64,000 bases of DNA, from assembly GCF_000166775.1 (NCBI RefSeq), contig NC_014720.1, positions 2,288,501-2,352,500 on the forward strand, read 5' to 3'. The DNA is from Caldicellulosiruptor kronotskyensis 2002. Its GTDB lineage: Bacteria > Bacillota > Thermoanaerobacteria > Caldicellulosiruptorales > Caldicellulosiruptoraceae. The translations under genes were made by a program, and so were the position numbers. Below, one piece after another: positions 20,580-59,327 of this stretch. The notes under the pieces were generated by a model that saw nothing but the letters and a program-made list of their open reading frames with translations, searched no databases and was not told the origin of the DNA. Position 1 is the stretch's first letter; each line of letters starts with the position of its first letter.

Positions 20580-21292
20580 GTGTCAAGAGTTTGTAGGAAA
20601 AAATTTTTATCAGAATATACCTGCGTTATAGAAGCTACAACTAATCAAAAACTTTAATGCTCTTCGTAACTGGTTAACTTTACCATTTGCTATAATTGGT
20701 ATATTATTCAACTTCCCCGTATCTCTTCGTACTCTTCTCACGTTCTTTATAATTCCTTTTGCTATTTCCTTAACTTCTTGCCTATCTAAATTTTTCGACT
20801 TTATACTTCTTAAATATACATTCATAAGTTCAAAATCATAATCCCCTTCCCCCCACATATCCTTTGCATTCCTTATCTTTGTAATATGTTCTCTCATATT
20901 CAATATAACCAAATATTGTCTTTAAACCCCTCTTGTCTCTCCTCACAACCTCATACCTCTTCTTCCTCTCTTCGTTTACTTTCAATGATTCATCTATAAG
21001 TTCACATGCTTCCTTTATCATCTCCTTGCCTATCAGGTCTAACTGCTTCTTAAGTTCAATTGAATATTCCGCTAAATCCTTCTCCCTTTTCACTATCTTC
21101 TCTAATCCTTCCTCAAAAGTCTTTAAAAGTTCTTCTATTTTTGATACAATATTTTCAGTCATTTTGCTCCCTCCTTTGGTTTGTTTTTCCTTTTTCTTTT
21201 TTTATTTTTCATCATTATATTCTACTTCATTTTTTCTCTTCTACCAAGAGGAGGGAGCTTTTTCCATCCAATGTCCTATAAATATTTTACAC
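20580..21292 (-). mobile_element. Internally deleted ISLre2-family (UPF0236) element
   Basis: The ends form an imperfect inverted repeat. GTGTCAAGAG..TTGTAGGA on the left matches GTGTAAAATATTTATAGGA read inward from the right. The about 713 bases between hold the N-terminal and C-terminal coding parts of an ISLre2 transposase with the middle missing, compared with about 1.5 kb for a complete copy. It lies between the nifV-like gene and the livK-like gene, both on the same strand. Confidence 0.65.
20610..21162 (-). pseudogene. ISLre2/UPF0236 transposase, deleted and frameshifted
   Basis: An N-terminal piece (20836-21162) carries the family segment RDKRGLKTIFGYIEYERTYYKDKEC. After about 100 residues the frame changes to a second piece (20610-20912) with the C-terminal style NAKDMWGEGDYDFEL. 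The catalytic middle of the ~470-residue transposase is absent. The gene cannot make active transposase, though it might be moved by a complete relative. Confidence 0.75.
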
Positions 21293-21310: not shown

Positions 21311-22303
21311 TTATAATTTTTCTAAAAATCTTTTTAGTTCGCAATACGCTTCTAAATTAAGTTTTAATCTAATCTCTTCTTTTATTTGAATAAGATCAGA
21401 AAGAAGCATTTCAAAAGAAGCTATGCCTGTTCTCTCACCCACGCCCCTGATACAGCAATTTGCAGTTGATGCTCCAAACAGCCATGCACATACTGCGTTT
21501 GCCTGGGCTTTATAAAAATCATTGTGACCGTGCCATTCAAGTCTTTGATGGGAAAGACCGCAATGTAGCCGCAAGACGTATATAAGCCTTGGAACACCTC
21601 GTGGCAAGCTTGCATACTCGTATGGAACACCCAATCCCAATGTATCACAAAGTTTATAACGAATATCTATGCCCTCGTTTTTTGTTTTACTTTCAATTAA
21701 CATAATAAAAGGTATAACAAAGTTTTGGATATCAGCTCTTGTAATATCCTCAAGGTGAATTCTTGGTTTTAAGTTCAAAGCCAGAGCTTCTTCAATTATA
21801 TTTATATACTCTTTTGCAACTTCAAGCCTTGTTTTGCCAAACTTTTTGTAAATATGATAATCTGATGCTGACATCAAAATTCCAACCTCATCAAGCCCCA
21901 ACTCTTTTGCGATCTTTAGCTCTTCTTTTTTAGCTCTCACCCACCCCACCACCCGTGGGAATTTGAACCCTTTCTTTAAACACTTTTCAACGCATCGTCT
22001 GTGATAGTTTGTATAAAGGAAAAATTCTGAGTATTCTATTATTCCAGTTTCGTTATCTATATAATGGAAATATTCAAAAATTCTTTCCACGTTATCTTCT
22101 CCTATATACGAAATTGCTTGCTGACCTTCTCTGAATGTGCTATCTGAAATGCAAAGAGTTTCTGGAATATCTAAAGGAACGGGTGTATCTTCAAAAGGTA
22201 TCTTTGGTATTGAGGTGTACGGAAAAATATTTTTAAAATAATTTGGGGCGTTTTTTGTTAGAACTTCATATTCCTCATTTTCAATTTTGAACACAGTCCT
22301 CAT
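21311..22303 (-). CDS. nifV: Homocitrate synthase-like protein of the nif operon (NifV role proposed)
   Basis: An HMGL/DRE-TIM-type acyl transferase of 330 residues. It is clearly a paralogue of the Re-citrate synthase at 36036-37433 (shared IFPYT.IPKI, SDYHI.KK, HLEDITRAD, LCDTLGLGV, EWHGHNDFYKA, GVGERTG) but lacks the ~140-residue C-terminal part. The metal-site motif is DSTFREGQQA, with Glu where citrate and isopropylmalate synthases have Asp. An REG form is typical of lysine-pathway homocitrate synthases. It sits 21 bases after modB at the end of the nif operon, so a role making homocitrate for FeMo-cofactor is likely. A GTG at 22294 has better spacing to GAGGAG and may be the real start. 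Confidence 0.75.
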   Translation of the reverse strand: MRTVFKIENEEYEVLTKNAPNYFKNIFPYTSIPKIPFEDTPVPLDIPETLCISDSTFREGQQAISYIGEDNVERIFEYFHYIDNETGIIEYSEFFLYTNYHRRCVEKCLKKGFKFPRVVGWVRAKKEELKIAKELGLDEVGILMSASDYHIYKKFGKTRLEVAKEYINIIEEALALNLKPRIHLEDITRADIQNFVIPFIMLIESKTKNEGIDIRYKLCDTLGLGVPYEYASLPRGVPRLIYVLRLHCGLSHQRLEWHGHNDFYKAQANAVCAWLFGASTANCCIRGVGERTGIASFEMLLSDLIQIKEEIRLKLNLEAYCELKRFLEKL

Positions 22304-22324
22304 CTCCTCTTATCTTCTAAAATT

Positions 22325-23089
22325 TTAATAATCAACATTGTTTAAAAATTTTTTGGTTATATAAAGTAGAAGGTATGAGATGGCTATCACAATAAAGCTT
22401 ACACAGTAAACTTCATCCTGATTTTGAGCATAAAGCTTATAAATATAAAGAGAAACTGTTTGAGTTTTGCCGTAAACATTCCCCGCAAAAACAACTGTTG
22501 CCCCAAACTCACCAAGGGCTCGTGAGAAGGTCCCAAGTATCCCTATCACAATCCCTTTCTTGCAAACAGGCAAATACACTTTAAACAAAAGCCCCAGTTC
22601 ATCCAATCCTAAGATGTACCCTTCTTCTTTGAGCTGTCTATCCACTGCTAAAAATGAAGTATATGAAACTTTTAAATAATATCCCATCGAAACAAATAGC
22701 TGGGCAAGGACAACCGCAGATGTAGTAAATGGAATATCAAAACCAATTTTGCTCAAATACCTGCCTAAAAAACCCATCCTTCCATAAAGTAAAAGAAGCA
22801 AAACTCCTGTTATGATTGGCGGTAGAACATTTGGCAAATCAATTAAAATCTCCAGAAACTCATTTTTCTTTTTCAAAGATGAAAGCAAATAGGCAAACGG
22901 TGTGCACAGCAAAAATGCTAAAGCAGAACAAATCGCAGCAGTAAAAAATGAAAGACCAAATGCAGTTATGGTCTCTTCTTTTGTTATAGCATTTATTAAT
23001 GTAGTATATGGCACAACAAAGATAAGGTTTATAAAAGGCAAGAGTAAAAACAGCAAAAACGGTACTGACAAAAAGAATATCTTTTTCAT
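22325..23089 (-). CDS. modB: Molybdate ABC transporter permease
   Basis: An inner-membrane subunit for molybdate import with about five to six helices. The cytoplasmic coupling EAA-type loop is LKEEGYILGLDELGLLFKVYLPVCKKGIVIGILGTFSRALGEFGA in the C-terminal half (near residues 155-200), and ALGEFGATV is characteristic of ModB. The ATG at 23089 gives a standard ModB start (MKKIFFLSVP). A longer frame begins at 23113, and neither has a strong ribosome site. It follows modA in the nif operon and supplies molybdenum for the nitrogenase cofactor. No modC ATPase gene is present next to it. Confidence 0.88.
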   Translation of the reverse strand: MKKIFFLSVPFLLFLLLPFINLIFVVPYTTLINAITKEETITAFGLSFFTAAICSALAFLLCTPFAYLLSSLKKKNEFLEILIDLPNVLPPIITGVLLLLLYGRMGFLGRYLSKIGFDIPFTTSAVVLAQLFVSMGYYLKVSYTSFLAVDRQLKEEGYILGLDELGLLFKVYLPVCKKGIVIGILGTFSRALGEFGATVVFAGNVYGKTQTVSLYIYKLYAQNQDEVYCVSFIVIAISYLLLYITKKFLNNVDY

Positions 23090-23130
23090 ATCAAGCTCAC
23101 ACACTTTTTGCATTATTTAAAAAAGACCAA

Positions 23131-23916
23131 TCATTCATACCCCTTTTCTTTTAAGAGCTTTGCAATGGTTTTGGTCTTAATAAAAGATATAAAATCTTTT
23201 GCAAACTTTGGATTTTTAGCTTTCTCTACAGCTGCAACATAGTGGCTTGCAACTACATTATATTTATCTGGAATGTCTATTATCTTGAGCTTTGTAAGCT
23301 TTGCATCAGGAAAATAAACAATCCCAGCGTCAGCTTCACCAACCTTTACTTTTTGAATTACATCAGTGAGCTCAAACTCCTGCGAAATAATGTTGGCTAT
23401 TATACCGCTGTAAAGACTCTTGTTATCATTTTTTATCTTGTCAATTAGCATCTTTGTATACATGCCAATGGGAGACACAGGATCAGCTATACAAAGCCTT
23501 ATCCCCTTTTTTGAAATATCCTCAAACTTTTTTATACTTGGGGAACTTGATATAACACAGAGTTTTGTTTTAGCAAAAATTTCGTATTTATCTATATATT
23601 TGGCCTTTTTTAGACTATCAATATACCTTCTGTCTGCTGAAAAAAATACATCACACATTGCTCCATTTTTCAGCTGTGTAACAAGCACGTGTGTTCCTGC
23701 AACATTGAAAACAACTTTACATGATTTTTGTTTTTCGAACTGTTTAGAAATGTCTTTTACAATACTTTCCAATGTGTTAGGAACAAAAACAATCAAACTT
23801 TCTTTTTTGGTTTTATCTTTGCTAAAAGATACATTAGAAACTGTTGAGAATAAAAAAGATGCTATTATAAAAAAATAGACACATCGCATCTTAAAAATAA
23901 AAAGTTTTTTTATCAT
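23131..23916 (-). CDS. modA: Molybdate-binding protein
   Basis: The extracytoplasmic binding protein of the molybdate transporter, about 261 residues with an N-terminal hydrophobic export signal. ModA features are LIVFVPNTLESIVKDI at the mature start, FNVAGTHVLVTQLKNGAMCDVFFSAD (the oxyanion-contact Ser/Thr region and the (A/G)DVF(F/V)SAD signature), IADPVSPIGMYT and VGEADAGIVY. Position inside the nif operon, between the NifX-like gene and modB, ties it to cofactor supply. The start is uncertain because ATGs lie at 23925 and 23916. The latter has AAAGGA 11 bases upstream. Confidence 0.88.
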   Translation of the reverse strand: MIKKLFIFKMRCVYFFIIASFLFSTVSNVSFSKDKTKKESLIVFVPNTLESIVKDISKQFEKQKSCKVVFNVAGTHVLVTQLKNGAMCDVFFSADRRYIDSLKKAKYIDKYEIFAKTKLCVISSSPSIKKFEDISKKGIRLCIADPVSPIGMYTKMLIDKIKNDNKSLYSGIIANIISQEFELTDVIQKVKVGEADAGIVYFPDAKLTKLKIIDIPDKYNVVASHYVAAVEKAKNPKFAKDFISFIKTKTIAKLLKEKGYE

Positions 23917-23962
23917 TTCCTGCATCTTCCTTTCATCTTGCAAAATGCATAATCAGTTTGCT

Positions 23963-24289
23963 TTACATAAAAATCTCTACAATCTCTTTTAAGGCATCTT
24001 TTATAAACCCCTGTCTTTCCAATACAACTTTGTCTGAAAGTTTTTCCAATGCACAAAGCCCAATTCTATTTGCTACAATTACATCACAGTCTTTTAGCAT
24101 ATCCACTCTCTTTTCTATCCTCTGTTCATTAGAACAATCTTCTTCTTTGTCTTTAAATTCTCTAACACATATAAGTTCACAGCTTCCATCGCTGAAAAGG
24201 TCAACTATCAGAAAATTTTCACTATTTCCAAAATGCCTATTTACAAGTCTTCCATCACTCGTTGCAATTGCCACTCTTTTTTTCTTCAT
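23963..24289 (-). CDS. NifX/NafY-like dinitrogenase iron-molybdenum cofactor-binding protein
   Basis: A small soluble protein of 108 residues with the NifX/NifB-C-terminal fold: VAIATSDGRLVNRHFGNSENFLI at the start (His after N is the usual cofactor-binding position in HFG), LKDCDVIVANRIG and a C-terminal helix. Such proteins carry NifB-cofactor or FeMo-cofactor intermediates. Here it would complement the short NifB, which lacks the fused NifX domain. The ATG at 24289 follows AGAGGTGGTGA. The longer GTG start at 24313 would overlap nifB by four bases. No nifY or nafY is otherwise present. Confidence 0.8.
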   Translation of the reverse strand: MKKKRVAIATSDGRLVNRHFGNSENFLIVDLFSDGSCELICVREFKDKEEDCSNEQRIEKRVDMLKDCDVIVANRIGLCALEKLSDKVVLERQGFIKDALKEIVEIFM

Positions 24290-24309
24290 TTTTTTATCAC
24301 CACCTCTTT

Positions 24310-25110
24310 TCACACAAGCAATCCAGCTTCATCCGACCTGCACTGTTTGCAATGGGTCACCAGCTGAATTATTTTACTACACTTTTCTCTTGCTTGAGCA
24401 AGAACACTACAAGATGGTTTTTCAATATCAGAAAATTTTGCATAGGGTATGAGCGGCATTATATTCATCACCGTAGCACCAAGTTCTTTGACTCTTGCAG
24501 CAATCTTCTCAATGTGATGGCTATTTATTCCAGGTATCAAAACTGTATTTACCTTCACCACAAGTCCAAACTCGGATGCTTTGTAGATACCATGTTGCTG
24601 TTTATGGACAATAAGCTCAGCCGCCTCTTTGCCAAAATATAGTAGTTCGTTGTACATGGCAAATTCATAAATGTTCTGAGCAATATTGCTATCTACTGCG
24701 TTGACTGTGACTGTCACATATTTGACATTGTAATTTAAAAGCACTTCCGCCAAATCTTCTAATAAAAGTCCATTTGTGCTTATACAAAACTCTGCCTGAG
24801 CATCATAATTTCTTATAAGCTCAAAAGTTTCAAATGTTTCTTGATTAAAGAGAGGATCGCCCGGTCCAGAAATTCCTACTATCTTTATAGTTTGGTCTTT
24901 GCTTGTGATATCCTTGTACCTTAAAAGCGCCTCTTGAGGAGTTAATACTTTTGAGCATGCGCCAGGGTGGTGATCGTTTATGCATGAGATGTTCTTGTCA
25001 CAGTAATTACATTTGATATTGCAAGACTTTGCAACAGGAAGATGTATTCTGCCAATTTTATATATGACATCTTTATTGAAACATGGGTGACCAAGAAGTT
25101 TACTTTCCAT
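24310..25110 (-). CDS. nifB: Nitrogenase cofactor biosynthesis radical SAM protein NifB (single-domain form)
   Basis: Makes NifB-cofactor, the 8Fe-9S-carbide precursor, using S-adenosylmethionine. The radical SAM cysteines are in CNIKCNYC near residue 30, with the preceding HPC motif near residue 8 supplying another cluster ligand. SGPGDPL is the usual SAM-contact strand, and CKQCRSDEAG at the C terminus is the NifB hallmark. At 266 residues it is the free-standing form without a NifX-like tail, as in methanogens and some Firmicutes. GGAGG precedes the ATG. It starts one base after nifE, so the two are coupled. Confidence 0.92.
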   Translation of the reverse strand: MESKLLGHPCFNKDVIYKIGRIHLPVAKSCNIKCNYCDKNISCINDHHPGACSKVLTPQEALLRYKDITSKDQTIKIVGISGPGDPLFNQETFETFELIRNYDAQAEFCISTNGLLLEDLAEVLLNYNVKYVTVTVNAVDSNIAQNIYEFAMYNELLYFGKEAAELIVHKQQHGIYKASEFGLVVKVNTVLIPGINSHHIEKIAARVKELGATVMNIMPLIPYAKFSDIEKPSCSVLAQAREKCSKIIQLVTHCKQCRSDEAGLLV

Positions 25111-25111
25111 C

Positions 25112-26401
25112 TCAAATCAACCTCCATACAGGTGCATGTATTTCTTTGAACAAATCTTCACACATGTTTAAAAAGCCTTCAAAACATGCATATGGTTTTG
25201 TCTCCTGAGGAAATACCAAAAAAGGTACTCCAAACTTGTGTGCAAGATACCATTCTCTTGTTCCGCCAATAAATACATCAGGTTCTATTCTCAAGAGAAT
25301 TTCCTCTATTTCTGCACAATTAAAATCATCGATAAAAAGTGCAGAAGGAAGTTCAAAGCGTGCTGTCTCATAATCGATATTGCATCCAAACTGACTGCCA
25401 CATACACAGATTTCAAGTCCTGCTTCTTTAAACGCACCAGCCATAAAACCTATCCTTGAACCTCCAAGAAGAATAATTGCTTTTTTGCCAAAAATTTTCT
25501 TTTTATATTTCTCAAGCTTATCTCTTATTTTTTCATACTCTTCTGAAATGACCATTTCTACTTTATGTTCAATACCAAAAAACTTCGAAATCTTTTTAAG
25601 AGAATTTACAGTATTGCTAAGTCCATAGAATGAAACATCTACAAAAGGAATAGAGTATCTTTCTCTCATAAACTGAGCAAGCAAAAGCCCAGAGCTTTTA
25701 CAAACAAGCAAGTTCAATGCAGCAGATGTGCTTTTTTGCATAAGATCTGCATCACAATCACCTGTATAGCTGCATATAACTTCTATTCCTATCTTTTCTA
25801 AAAGTTTTTTTATAACCCTCGTCTCTCCTGCCACATTGTATTCACCAATTATGTTTACAGAAAATGGCTGTGTACTTTCTTTTTTGCAATACTCTGAAAG
25901 ATAACTTATAATAGCCTTCTGAGCTATGTGGTGCCCGTCTGACTGCGAAAACCCTCCAAACCCAGGAACCTCAACAGGAATGATAGGTTTTTGTACTTTT
26001 TCTTTTACTTTCTCTACAACCCATTTTATTTCTTCACCAATCTGTGAAGACGTGCATGTTGAATATACGAATATCATACTGTGTTCAGGAAAGATTTTTG
26101 CTGCTTCTTCAATACACCTTTCAAGCTTTTCATGCGCACCAAAGATAACATCCTTTTCATTCATATCAGTTGAAAGTATTAAATAATTCTTCTTTCTTAC
26201 ATTCTGACCATAATATGCACAGTCAGCAGGTGCGTGCACAATGTGAGTTGAATTTCTTACAGGGGCAAGAACCCAGCGCGCCCCATAATAGGTGCAAGCG
26301 CGCTGGGACATCACACCTGGAATTGTTGGTCTTGAACACTGAGGTATTCCGCTCTGTACAATGTGCCCCTGTCTTTGCTCTAAAAAAGCTTTTATAGCCA
26401 T
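25112..26401 (-). CDS. nifE: Nitrogenase cofactor scaffold protein NifE
   Basis: A NifD-like 429-residue protein placed after nifDK. P-cluster-type cysteines are in QRACTYYG and ADCAYYGQ, then TCTSSQIGEE. The FeMo-cofactor-type cysteine is kept in LLVCKSSGLL near residue 230, and the Gln/His pocket in GFSQSDGHHIAQ. The second cofactor ligand of NifD, the His before GPY, is missing (QETKPYACFEG), as expected for a scaffold that must release its cluster. NifE normally forms a heterotetramer with NifN, but no nifN is seen here, and nifB follows directly. NifE may pair with NifK or itself (inference). Confidence 0.85.
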   Translation of the reverse strand: MAIKAFLEQRQGHIVQSGIPQCSRPTIPGVMSQRACTYYGARWVLAPVRNSTHIVHAPADCAYYGQNVRKKNYLILSTDMNEKDVIFGAHEKLERCIEEAAKIFPEHSMIFVYSTCTSSQIGEEIKWVVEKVKEKVQKPIIPVEVPGFGGFSQSDGHHIAQKAIISYLSEYCKKESTQPFSVNIIGEYNVAGETRVIKKLLEKIGIEVICSYTGDCDADLMQKSTSAALNLLVCKSSGLLLAQFMRERYSIPFVDVSFYGLSNTVNSLKKISKFFGIEHKVEMVISEEYEKIRDKLEKYKKKIFGKKAIILLGGSRIGFMAGAFKEAGLEICVCGSQFGCNIDYETARFELPSALFIDDFNCAEIEEILLRIEPDVFIGGTREWYLAHKFGVPFLVFPQETKPYACFEGFLNMCEDLFKEIHAPVWRLI

Positions 26402-26426
26402 CTTAATTCACCACTTTTCTTCTTGT

Positions 26427-27806
26427 TTACTGGTGAAGTTTGTCATGTGGATAAGAATAATCTAAGATTGTATTTACAATCAAATCCAAAAGCCAGATGC
26501 TTCCTTTGTACCCTGTTATTCCATATCTGAAATATCCAACCCTGTCGTATACAGGGAAGCCTATTCTCACAACAGGGCATTTTACTGATTTTGCAACTTC
26601 AACTGCTTTTGAGTTGCCAAGTATGACTTCAACCCCTGCCTCTTTTGCTAAGTATTCAAATTCATAAAGGTCGCTGTCTACAAGAATTTCACCTTCAATG
26701 TTATATTCATCAAAGATTTTCTTTATCTCATCGGCAAAGGTAGGAGAAGGCGTTGCTGTCTCCACCACCTTTACATCCATCCCAAGTTCACACAAAAACC
26801 TTGTAACAGCTATTACAATGTCAGGGTCACCAAACACAGCTGCCCTTCTCATCATTGTATACTGGCAAGTATCTGCCATAGCATCTAAAAGAAGACCTCT
26901 TTCAACTTTGACTTCTTCTGGAATTTCGATTTCGTAGATAGAAGCAACATTCTCAATAAATTTATCTGTATTTTCCACTCCAACCGGGAACGGACCAAGG
27001 ATACTTTTTACACCAAACTCGCTTTCCAAATAACTTGCACCAGTGCCACCTGCATGAGGACAAAGAGCTAAGATGGCTTTCCCGTTTGCACAGTCTTCAA
27101 GCTCCTGCCATGGCGTGCCACCTTCTGGATAGAGCGGTTTTGGAGGCATCAGTGGTGAGTTTAAGGTTTTTGAAATATCAAATAAAACTGAGTATTCTAC
27201 ACCCATTAAATTTAGAAGATGTTTTACCTCTTCGATGTCACCGGGATTAATCATTCCTGGAATAATATATAGTTTTTGGTTTGGTTCTTTTGATTTTGCA
27301 AAGTACTTAATATACGAAATTGTTGCTGTGTCATAGCCTTTTACATGTGTTCCTGCATAGCTTGGTGTATGAATTGGCACAACAAATACGCTTTGTGCAA
27401 CCTCATCACCCAGTTCTTCTCTCACCTTTTTATATGCCTCTTTTATAAAAGCTTCTATATCGTCTCCTATGGTTTCGCTTGAACATGTTGTGACAACACC
27501 TATCACCTTTGGCGCATATCTAAAAACAAGATTTCTTATTCCTTCTATAAGATTTCTTCTTCCACCAAACACAGCCGCATCTTCGTGGAAAGATGTCACT
27601 GCAATGTTCACAGGTTCTTTGAAGTGCCTGTTGAACTGGTATCGAACATAAGTGCAGCATCCTTGAGAACCTTGAACAAGGGGTACTGCCTTGTCAATAC
27701 CAAGTGTTGCATACATTGCACCAATTGGTTGACACATCTTTGGAGGATTTATGGTAACATGTCTGTTTGCTTTCGAAATTAGCGGACTATCAAGTTTTGT
27801 TGCCAT
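26427..27806 (-). CDS. nifK: Nitrogenase molybdenum-iron protein beta chain
   Basis: The beta subunit of dinitrogenase (component 1). It shows the P-cluster cysteines in MCQPIGA, SQGCCTYVR and TTCSSETIGDD, and the family segments FNRHFKEP and EDAAVFGGRRNL. At about 459 residues it is shorter than the ~520-residue Azotobacter form, lacking the long N-terminal extension, as in deep-branching nitrogenases. The start at ATG 27806 follows AGGAGGTG and overlaps the end of nifD by 28 bases, giving translational coupling for equal amounts of subunits. Confidence 0.93.
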   Translation of the reverse strand: MATKLDSPLISKANRHVTINPPKMCQPIGAMYATLGIDKAVPLVQGSQGCCTYVRYQFNRHFKEPVNIAVTSFHEDAAVFGGRRNLIEGIRNLVFRYAPKVIGVVTTCSSETIGDDIEAFIKEAYKKVREELGDEVAQSVFVVPIHTPSYAGTHVKGYDTATISYIKYFAKSKEPNQKLYIIPGMINPGDIEEVKHLLNLMGVEYSVLFDISKTLNSPLMPPKPLYPEGGTPWQELEDCANGKAILALCPHAGGTGASYLESEFGVKSILGPFPVGVENTDKFIENVASIYEIEIPEEVKVERGLLLDAMADTCQYTMMRRAAVFGDPDIVIAVTRFLCELGMDVKVVETATPSPTFADEIKKIFDEYNIEGEILVDSDLYEFEYLAKEAGVEVILGNSKAVEVAKSVKCPVVRIGFPVYDRVGYFRYGITGYKGSIWLLDLIVNTILDYSYPHDKLHQ

Positions 27807-29182
27807 TGTGATGCCCACCTCCTGTCAACGAATTTCCAAACTGGAGCATAGAGTGACTTGTAAAGGTCTCTTGCAAAATTGACCAGACCTTCAAAAGCTA
27901 CATATGGCCCATTTTCGTAAGAATGTGAGTTCAAAGATGGAACACCAATCTTGTGTGCAAGGTATTTCTCTTTCAATCCTGTGAGGAATATATCGGGTTT
28001 ATACTTTTCTATAACCTCTTCAAGCTCAAGCTCGTTAGGATTATCGATCACCAAAACTCCATCGTCTGCTCTTGCGTTTATCTTTTCATAGTCATCCTCA
28101 TGCCCAAATGTTGTAGCACATGCAACAACTTCTATCCCAAGGTCACGCATAAGCGGTATCCAGTGCCAGACTCTTGGTGCTCCAACGTAAATCATTGCAC
28201 GCTTGCCGCGAAGCTTTTCTCTGAAAAACTCAAGCCTTGACATAATACTTTCGAGCTCTTCTTCAATCACTTCTTCCACCTTTTTATCAATTCCAAAAAA
28301 CTTTCCTATCTCCCTAAGAGAATTAGTTGTTTCGGTAATTCCAAAAAGTGTTACCCTGATAAATGGCGTGCCGTACTTTTCTTTCATAAGCCTTGCAATG
28401 TATGTTGCTGACCTCTGGCAGTGGACAATGTTGAGCTTTGCATAGTGCATCTTGCACAGATTATCATAAGAAGCGTTTCCAGTAAATGCTGTTATAATCC
28501 TCAAGCCAATCTTTGTGAATAGCTTCTCAAGCACCCAGTAATCTCCATCAATGTTGTACTCGCCTATGATATTAACATCATACGGTGTTGGGTCTTCAAG
28601 TTCTTTTGTCCCAACAATCTTTTCAAAGATTGTGTGATTTGCGATATGATGACCTTTAGACTGAGAAACACCGCAAAAACCCGGTGAATTGAATGCAATG
28701 ACTGGTTTTCCTATTGCTTTTGAAGCTTTTTTGGCAACAGCTTCTAAATCATCACCAATTAGGGCAGTTGGACATGTTGCATATATAAATACCGCTTTGG
28801 CTTCAGGAAACTGCTGGTTTGCTTCAATTATTGCATTGTAAAGTTTCTTTTCCCCACCGAAAACTATGTCTTTTTCTTGCATGTCAGTTGAAAAGCAATA
28901 CTTTCTATGAAATTCACTATCGGACAGGTGTCTTCGTGATGACCACGTATAATATGCACAGCCAATTGGCCCATGGACTATCTGAATTACATCTTTAACA
29001 GGTCCTCCAACAACACCTCTTGCTCCTGCAAATGCACAACCACGCTCTGTCATGTCACCCGGGATGGTTCTTACATTGCACACAGGTACAACAGGATTGT
29101 TCCTGTCAGTTATATATGTGTGTTTTCCTCTTTCTTCAATGCACCTGTCACAGTCCAAAGTCACAAATGGCATGACTGTCAA
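27779..29182 (-). CDS. nifD: Nitrogenase molybdenum-iron protein alpha chain
   Basis: The catalytic alpha subunit carrying FeMo-cofactor. P-cluster cysteines are in RGCAFAGARGVVGGP, GPIGCAYYTW and ATCPTALIGDD. The cofactor cysteine is in LNIVHCQRSATYIARLM near residue 250. The pocket Gln and His are in GVSQSKGHHIAN. The His ligand is probably that in NSHSYENGPY, spaced five residues before the Gly as in VnfD/AnfD, rather than six as in Azotobacter NifD. At 467 residues it is compact. This fits a deep-branching molybdenum nitrogenase. The molybdenum assignment rests on the linked nifE, nifB and modAB and on the absence of a delta subunit gene (anfG/vnfG). Confidence 0.9.
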   Translation of the reverse strand: MTVMPFVTLDCDRCIEERGKHTYITDRNNPVVPVCNVRTIPGDMTERGCAFAGARGVVGGPVKDVIQIVHGPIGCAYYTWSSRRHLSDSEFHRKYCFSTDMQEKDIVFGGEKKLYNAIIEANQQFPEAKAVFIYATCPTALIGDDLEAVAKKASKAIGKPVIAFNSPGFCGVSQSKGHHIANHTIFEKIVGTKELEDPTPYDVNIIGEYNIDGDYWVLEKLFTKIGLRIITAFTGNASYDNLCKMHYAKLNIVHCQRSATYIARLMKEKYGTPFIRVTLFGITETTNSLREIGKFFGIDKKVEEVIEEELESIMSRLEFFREKLRGKRAMIYVGAPRVWHWIPLMRDLGIEVVACATTFGHEDDYEKINARADDGVLVIDNPNELELEEVIEKYKPDIFLTGLKEKYLAHKIGVPSLNSHSYENGPYVAFEGLVNFARDLYKSLYAPVWKFVDRRWASQWQQNLIVR

Positions 29183-29210
29183 CCTCCTTTTATTTAAAGA
29201 TTAGGATTTT

Positions 29211-29585
29211 TTATATCAGGGCCTCATAGCCCTTTTCTCTTGTCCTGATTCTTATACTATCTTCAACAGGAAGAACAAATATCTTTCCATCGCCAATTTG
29301 ACCTGTGCGATTTACAGCCGTAATGATATTGACAACCCTCTCAACATCTCTATCATCTACAATGATTGTAACCATTCTTTTGGGAATAAACTCCATAGCG
29401 GTGGATGAAAGAACCATCTCTGTAGCTTTGTCAACCTCCACTGCTTTTACCTCACCAACCAGCCCTCGCTGTTTGCCACGCCCCATGACTTTTTGGAATG
29501 TTGCAGCGGGATACCCCGCTGCAGCCAGCACATCTTTTGTCACACCCACTTTGTTCATTCGGATAATAGCTACAATCTCTTTCAT
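29211..29585 (-). CDS. nifI2: PII-like nitrogenase regulator NifI2
   Basis: A PII-family protein of 124 residues located between nifI1 and nifD, the position typical of methanogens and anaerobic bacteria. The T-loop region differs from GlnK (GRGKQRGLVGEVKAVEVDKATEM), lacking the uridylylated Tyr motif. The C-terminal GQIGDGKIFVLPVEDSIRIRTREKG is the standard PII ending. With NifI1 it forms a complex that inhibits NifDK when fixed nitrogen is plentiful and releases it on binding 2-oxoglutarate and ATP (established for methanogens). Confidence 0.9.
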   Translation of the reverse strand: MKEIVAIIRMNKVGVTKDVLAAAGYPAATFQKVMGRGKQRGLVGEVKAVEVDKATEMVLSSTAMEFIPKRMVTIIVDDRDVERVVNIITAVNRTGQIGDGKIFVLPVEDSIRIRTREKGYEALI

Positions 29586-29608
29586 TTTTAAAAAATACCT
29601 CCTTCTTA

Positions 29609-29926
29609 CTACAGACCTTTTTCTCCCGTTCTGATGGTATAAGCCTCTTCAACAGGGCTTATAAATATCTTACCGTCACCGAAATTGCCGGTATACGCAT
29701 TTTGCAAGATTATATCAACTACTTTTTGGCAGTCATTATCTTCTACTACCATCATGATCATTGTCTTTGGAAGTTCGTCATAGACGATGTTCCCTGTTTT
29801 GATGCCTTTTTGTTTTCCACGTCCAAATACATCAATCTTTGTCATTGAAACAAAACCGTTTGAGTCAAGTGCCCTCACAACCTTTTCTTGCATCTCTGGT
29901 CTAATTATTGCTCGTATCATCTTCAT
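29609..29926 (-). CDS. nifI1: PII-like nitrogenase regulator NifI1
   Basis: A 105-residue PII protein directly after nifH. It starts MKMIRAIIRPEMQEKVV, has the altered T-loop GRGKQKGIKTGNIVYDELPKTM, and ends with GNFGDGKIFISPVEEAYTIRTGEKG. It is the partner of NifI2 in post-translational control of dinitrogenase. AGGAGG lies upstream of the ATG. The order nifH-nifI1-nifI2-nifD implies co-expression with the enzyme it regulates. Confidence 0.9.
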   Translation of the reverse strand: MKMIRAIIRPEMQEKVVRALDSNGFVSMTKIDVFGRGKQKGIKTGNIVYDELPKTMIMMVVEDNDCQKVVDIILQNAYTGNFGDGKIFISPVEEAYTIRTGEKGL

Positions 29927-29949
29927 AACTATTCAAAACCTCCTTTTTT

Positions 29950-30774
<825 letters not shown>

Positions 30775-58802: not shown

Positions 58803-59327
58803 CTATTTTACCCTGCTTTCATGCATCTTGAAAAGCTCTGGCATGATTTCTCGAACAACCATTTCAAGCTCATCATCGCCAATAACAGTTGTTCTTCCAT
58901 TTTCGTACTCCCTGTCAACCCACTCTTTGATTTTAGCAACTCTCGGGTCGCGCTTGTCAATCTTCTTGTCACCTTCAAGCCTGAAATATGTGTTAATCCA
59001 TGCAGCGATACCTGCAAGCCCAGAGTGTGCATCAACTGCAATGACAATTGGCTTGTTTAAAACCTTCTTTGTATCAAATATGTTGTAGATTTCCTCATCC
59101 TTTAAAATACAGTCAGCATGAATTCCTGCTCTTGTTGCATTAAATGCCCTGCCAACAAACGGCGTTCTTGGTGGAATCTTGTAGTCAAGCTCTTTTTCAA
59201 AGTAATCTGCAATCTCAGTGATTACCTCAAGCCTCATATTCTTTGTTGTGCCTCTAAGCTGGGCATATTCAATTACCATAGCCTCAAGCGGAGTATTACC
59301 AGTCCTCTCACCAATACCTAAGAGCAA
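58803..59327 (-). pseudogene. C-terminal fragment of a Re-citrate synthase copy
   Basis: About 174 codons match the last third of the gene at 36036-37433 with only a few changes (for example HADC for HADG). The TIM-barrel with metal-site and HGHND motifs is absent. The join on its upstream side is to a fragment of the 57065-type gene. The frame is intact, but there is no promoter or ribosome site, so it is regarded as non-functional. Confidence 0.88.

Follow-up and report, generated by a model that had tools for sequence, protein, structure and literature searches.

Caldicellulosiruptor, whose nitrogenase is among the deepest-branching, fixes N2 at 70–78 °C without NifN, and its nif locus raises the question of where the homocitrate for the cofactor comes from. 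Growth on N2 and acetylene reduction have been reported for C. kronotskyensis 2002, and the same paper, on nif in Caldicellulosiruptor, mentions neither nifV nor homocitrate (PMC8209448). The closest tested NifEN-less nitrogenase is the NifDK of Roseiflexus, which also does without NifEN, and there homocitrate was required for cofactor assembly in vitro (PMC11573651). According to an earlier survey that applied a BLAST threshold of 20% identity, the NifN-less group retains nifV (PMC3464626); the gene counted in that survey could be the one described below or another member of its family.

The last gene of the nif/mod operon

The window, by which we mean the whole analyzed stretch of 64,000 nucleotides, comes from a Caldicellulosiruptor genome of 2,843,785 bases and contains a run of 11 same-strand genes in the order nifH-I1-I2-D-K-E-B-X-modA-modB followed by a short paralogue of Re-citrate synthase (Re-CS), with gaps of only -40 to +28 nt (Table 1). 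A sequence-only reading of this DNA had placed the short gene last in the nif/mod run, as it indeed is, and had matched it over about 310 residues to the full-length Re-CS at 36 kb; in BLASTP, 138 of 310 residues (45%) were identical, with a score of 301 bits. The product, a DRE-TIM barrel of 330 aa, stops where the C-terminal domain of the 36-kb enzyme would begin, and the ~130 C-terminal residues of the latter, whose absence the same reading had noticed, are missing from all nine orthologues in the genus. Pfam recognizes the HMGL-like barrel alone in the short protein; in full-length Re-CS it adds a weak match to HCS_D2. The metal and catalytic motif residues of the short barrel (FR.GQQ, HGHND, E185 and GER) are all kept. 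Translation probably starts at codon 4, a GTG at 22294, with an AGGAG box 9 nt upstream and an ATG at its place in the closest orthologues. Elsewhere in the operon, the NifX-like part missing from the C-terminus of NifB is found as a separate, overlapping gene (window 23963-25110, minus strand).

Table 1. Genes of the nif/mod run and the nearest full-length homologue, in window coordinates
Feature	Position	Strand	Remarks
Barrel-only Re-citrate-synthase paralogue (short Re-CS), proposed homocitrate synthase alpha subunit (NifV-equivalent)	21311..22303	-	BLASTP, alignments, model
modB-like molybdate ABC permease	22325..23113	-	adjoins short Re-CS in 9/9 nif-bearing genomes
modA, molybdate-binding protein	23131..23943	-	
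NifX-like protein	23963..24313	-	
nifB	24310..25110	-	short, without C-terminal NifX-like domain
nifE-like	25112..26401	-	
nifK	26427..27818	-	
nifD	27779..29182	-	GVSQSKGHH (Q191/H195) and GLKEKY (homocitrate anchor K426) kept; roles of these residues as given in PMC3464626
nifI2 (PII-like)	29211..29585	-	
nifI1 (PII-like)	29609..29926	-	
nifH	29950..30771	-	
Full-length Re-citrate synthase, 465 aa	36036..37433	-	FRDGQQ, GERTGN, GIHADG...Y; nearest homologue in window

A UPF0236-type insertion-sequence remnant lies directly downstream of the operon (20610-21162, minus strand). Truncation by this element was considered and rejected, as an orthologue with no adjacent insertion sequence has the same end point; because the nine genus orthologues share one end, the shortness is native to the gene and not caused by the insertion.

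The predicted structure of short Re-CS is a full barrel with one additional helix (pLDDT 83); full-length Re-CS, predicted without an alignment, reached a pLDDT of 41. For residues 40-330 of the short model, the closest structures are the homocitrate synthase (HCS) 6ktq and other HCS/IPMS catalytic domains, and the alignment with Lys4 stops at residue 297 of the latter. HMG-CoA lyase and 4-hydroxy-2-oxovalerate aldolase, barrel-only enzymes of an HMGL type that needs no C-terminal domain, are also among the fold matches, and one might imagine that homocitrate is made as a side activity of full-length Re-CS, LeuA or CimA while the short protein performs another nif task, for example as such a lyase or aldolase. 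We find this quite unlikely: the matches to these enzymes are weaker than those to HCS/IPMS (Z 23–24 vs. 26–28), the operon contains no pathway for a lyase of this kind, and the motifs of the Re-CS family are fully conserved.

Descent and distribution

The sequence-only reading had proposed an origin separate from the isopropylmalate-type NifV and named a phylogeny as the means of checking it. In a tree of 70 barrels, including Re-CS, NifV, NifV-alpha, lysine HCS, LeuA and CimA, the short proteins fall within the Re-CS family and not within classical NifV: the branch that places them on the Re-CS side, apart from NifV, NifV-alpha, lysine HCS, LeuA and CimA, has an SH-aLRT of 100 in the quick tree. 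A forced union with NifV and NifV-alpha is rejected (AU p = 6e-5), as is one with lysine HCS, which was represented by three rows and by barrel parts only (AU p = 5e-4). In the careful tree the short clade has a long stem of its own within Re-CS, and a clade uniting it with both Caldicellulosiruptor Re-CS is not rejected (AU p = 0.56). Against the NifV model TIGR02660, short Re-CS scores 94.3 bits, below the curated cut-off of 462.9; among the five genus genomes covered by the scan, no protein exceeded this value, the best match having an E-value near 1e-96 when true members reach 1e-140 or lower. By tree and profile, then, short Re-CS is a member of the Re-CS family, of an origin independent of NifV, and the separate origin proposed earlier holds.

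Among 12 Caldicellulosiruptor genomes, the short gene occurs in nine, which are exactly the nine with nifK, and three genomes have neither (Fisher p = 0.0045 for the 12 genomes, with kinship ignored). The nine orthologues are 330–348 aa long with a common end point, and within species groups their dN/dS is 0.09–0.26; the gene is under purifying selection. In one genome, nifK itself is apparently split by an in-frame TAG (G004:C1:534961-536261; L041, L042), as a pseudogene or by a sequencing error. Full-length Re-CS is present as two paralogues in all 12 genomes, the second of them a Re-CS-type enzyme of 455–458 aa encoded beside a ferredoxin-domain protein (G000:C1:542270-543574; L003); the sequence-only reading had mentioned neither this third family member of the genome nor the strand of the short gene. 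That short Re-CS should be a decaying, truncated duplicate with no function we regard as very improbable: it lacks a domain thought to be essential and has the insertion-sequence remnant just downstream, but the purifying selection, the single end point in nine genomes and the exact co-occurrence with nifK all speak against decay.

Between two species groups of the genus, short Re-CS is far less conserved than full-length Re-CS, with identities of 63% and 97–98%, respectively; modB, at 75%, shares with the short gene a dS of about 2, against 0.4–1.1 for the full-length enzymes. The nif/mod block (window 21311-30771 and the orthologous blocks) is far more diverged between the species groups than housekeeping genes such as full-length Re-CS, which points to an exchange of the block by recombination among members of the genus. 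This bears on the earlier proposal that the gene arose by duplication of a citrate synthase: descent from the Re-CS family stands, but the long stem and the signs of block exchange lend no support to a recent duplication in this genome.

Beyond the genus, no short form was found among the best 80 contig loci, 79 of which have a full-length frame, nor among the matches listed from 398 sampled phylum genomes. One candidate, L079, was rejected as a short form, its frame of 326 aa lacking the N-terminal motif and containing GIH.

Metal site, keto-acid pocket and missing lid

Nineteen alignment columns are fixed in the short clade for a residue other than the one that 90% or more of full-length Re-CS have, and two of these lie at the metal site, where all nine short proteins have E for D at column 59 and I for N at column 294. 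The first of these changes is the FREGQQ in place of FRDGQQ of the 36-kb enzyme that the sequence-only reading had pointed out, and the alignments show it in 9/9 genus orthologues; the second, GERTGN to GERTGI, goes beyond what had been noted. A change of T to S at column 55 follows nearly the same pattern. Every lysine-HCS row that extends over the two columns has E59 and I294, just as the earlier reading had claimed of REG, whereas D59 and N294 are found in all 39 full-length Re-CS, in all NifV and NifV-alpha rows and in the LeuA of the host genome itself. At the level of the alignment, D59E and N294I thus match the lysine-type homocitrate synthases, and REG cannot serve as a mark of NifV, RDG being present in every NifV and NifV-alpha row examined. 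Nor does the synthesis of homocitrate require REG, as NifV itself has RDG.

The pocket gives a different picture. The short proteins have W121, R181 and H183, the same residues as Re-CS, while the corresponding columns are H, R and S/T in lysine HCS and W, S and N in NifV; going by published lysine HCS structures, we place these three columns close to the keto acid's distal carboxylate. With the pocket columns still Re-CS-like, the switch to 2-oxoglutarate is hypothetical, and the substrate may still be oxaloacetate. The case for homocitrate as the product is therefore one of context and metal site, not of the pocket, which is unchanged from Re-CS.

The same residues could be taken to mean that the protein is a Re-CS subunit dedicated to nif that converts oxaloacetate to citrate, either as the cofactor acid or, through aconitase and isocitrate dehydrogenase, as a precursor of the 2-oxoglutarate used to assimilate ammonia while N2 is fixed. 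The genes for these two enzymes are indeed nearby, at 16–19 kb of the window, so that steps of the citrate synthase path are at hand, and the tree places the short protein within the Re-CS family. On the other hand, all genomes of the genus already have two full-length Re-CS, the only other enzymes with the metal-site changes are homocitrate synthases, and a cofactor bearing citrate is poor in N2 reduction. The strain nevertheless grows on N2 (PMC8209448), and overall we consider the citrate-making subunit improbable, if worth keeping in mind.

The lost C-terminal domain had been described as a regulatory tail, which proved mistaken, as it holds the catalytic lid. In lysine HCS, the lid residues are His321 and Tyr332 (S. 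pombe numbering), eleven apart and contributed by the post-barrel domain of the neighboring subunit. Re-CS has a GIHADG motif and a conserved Tyr that are also spaced by eleven (columns 407 and 418), and this GIH...Y lid is present in the full-length relatives examined and absent from all nine short proteins. Since the lost domain carries the lid, truncation by itself would be expected to inactivate the enzyme if the domain were not provided by another protein, and short Re-CS probably depends on a full-length partner acting in trans.

A separate omega gene was not found in the 12 genus genomes by searches with PF22617 or the Re-CS C-domain, which a strongly diverged omega could escape. In these genomes, the missing C-domain occurs only in full-length enzymes, save one fragment derived from the 36-kb gene in two genomes, and, this decayed fragment apart, domains of the HCS_D2 type are carried only by LeuA, CimA and the two full-length Re-CS. 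The fragment, at 58803-59327 (minus strand) of the window and at L197 in genome G002, is an open partial copy from the final third of the 36-kb Re-CS gene (94.8% DNA identity over 632 bp). As a hidden omega it was rejected, its GIHADG motif being decayed to GIHADC/GIHANC and the copy being present also in a genome without nif; it is probably debris of a duplication.

With the intact domain confined to LeuA, CimA and the two Re-CS, a working enzyme would most simply be obtained as a mixed dimer with Re-CS, and the 36-kb Re-CS is a candidate donor of the missing domain. We give slightly better than even chances to the reading that short Re-CS is the NifV-equivalent of Caldicellulosiruptor, an alpha barrel of a homocitrate synthase recruited from Re-CS that would obtain its lid in trans from full-length Re-CS. 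The barrel would bind a divalent metal, 2-oxoglutarate and acetyl-CoA; the 36-kb or the 542-kb paralogue would contribute the catalytic GIH...Y lid within a mixed dimer; and the homocitrate produced would be used for the FeMo-cofactor.

Orphan barrels and known systems

A similar arrangement exists outside the Re-CS family. NifV of C. pasteurianum is split into alpha, the barrel, and omega, the C-part, and both are needed. Split NifV-omega/NifV-alpha genes are known from C. acetobutylicum, C. beijerinckii and C. butyricum (PMC12342839, PMC6429469). We found a barrel-only NifV-alpha in at least 19 of 299 sampled phylum genomes; at most of the ten loci inspected (L185-L194) it has nif genes in its vicinity or follows immediately on mod genes, and at one of them (L187) it comes directly after a mod operon, as short Re-CS does in Caldicellulosiruptor. 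No omega gene was seen beside NifV-alpha at these ten loci, nor a free C-domain (PF22617) in the 19 genomes beyond a negligible match of 40 aa. A full-length TIGR02660 protein is encoded in 18 of the 19, compared with 111 of the 299 overall (hypergeometric p = 9e-8, with kinship ignored). Some of these full-length proteins adjoin aconitase-like genes, a setting that fits the second type of Re-CS, an enzyme frequently mislabelled as homocitrate synthase in annotations (PMC12016533). The NifV-alpha genomes and Caldicellulosiruptor thus show the same pattern, and two families seem to have given rise to barrel-only nif proteins that are accompanied by a full-length paralogue elsewhere.

The pattern could also arise if the barrel were a partner with no turnover of its own, pairing with full-length Re-CS and altering its substrate range or regulation. 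The lack of the GIH...Y lid in short Re-CS would agree with this, as would the co-occurrence of the omega-less NifV-alpha with a full-length paralogue in 18 of the 19 other genomes. Yet in a pseudoenzyme one would expect to see some of the metal and catalytic residues lost, and in short Re-CS those of the barrel are all kept and dN/dS is low; we judge such a role to be rather unlikely, a little more so than the dedicated citrate-making subunit.

Returning to a catalytic short Re-CS, we tentatively extend the proposal, in a form that we think possible but doubtful: a homocitrate synthase for nitrogenase would have arisen a second time, from Re-CS, through convergent metal-site changes and loss of the lid; it would work only as a mixed complex that borrows the lid of housekeeping Re-CS, and the same rule of borrowing would apply to the omega-less NifV-alpha of other Firmicutes. 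If short Re-CS is indeed the NifV-equivalent, the supply of homocitrate has at least two evolutionary origins, and in Caldicellulosiruptor it depends on a naturally split, heat-stable enzyme. This would also correct the earlier surveys that list nifV by BLAST in this group and give a rule for orphan NifV-alpha genes.

Among the known systems, Re-CS of the Clostridium kluyveri type is the closest by descent: tree and motifs put it in the same family, with 38–45% identity over the barrel and the family-specific FR.GQQ, SDYHI, EDITR.D and EWHGHND blocks in common, and short Re-CS differs from it in the absence of the C-terminal domain, in E59 and I294, and in being tied to nif rather than universal. 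With the NifV-alpha of clostridial nif clusters it shares the barrel-only form, an end before the GIH lid, the position at the end of nif/mod runs and the proposed role, but the two belong to different families, their union in one clade is rejected by the AU test, and in Caldicellulosiruptor the omega gene was not found. The resemblance to NifV proper (TIGR02660) is one of operon context and proposed product, NifV keeping its C-domain and an RDG/GN metal site. The lysine homocitrate synthases (Lys4/LysS; 3ivs, 2ztj, 6ktq), finally, are the nearest solved structures and have REG, GERxGI and R181 in common with short Re-CS; unlike it, they are full-length, have H at 121 and S/T at 183, and do not share a clade with it.
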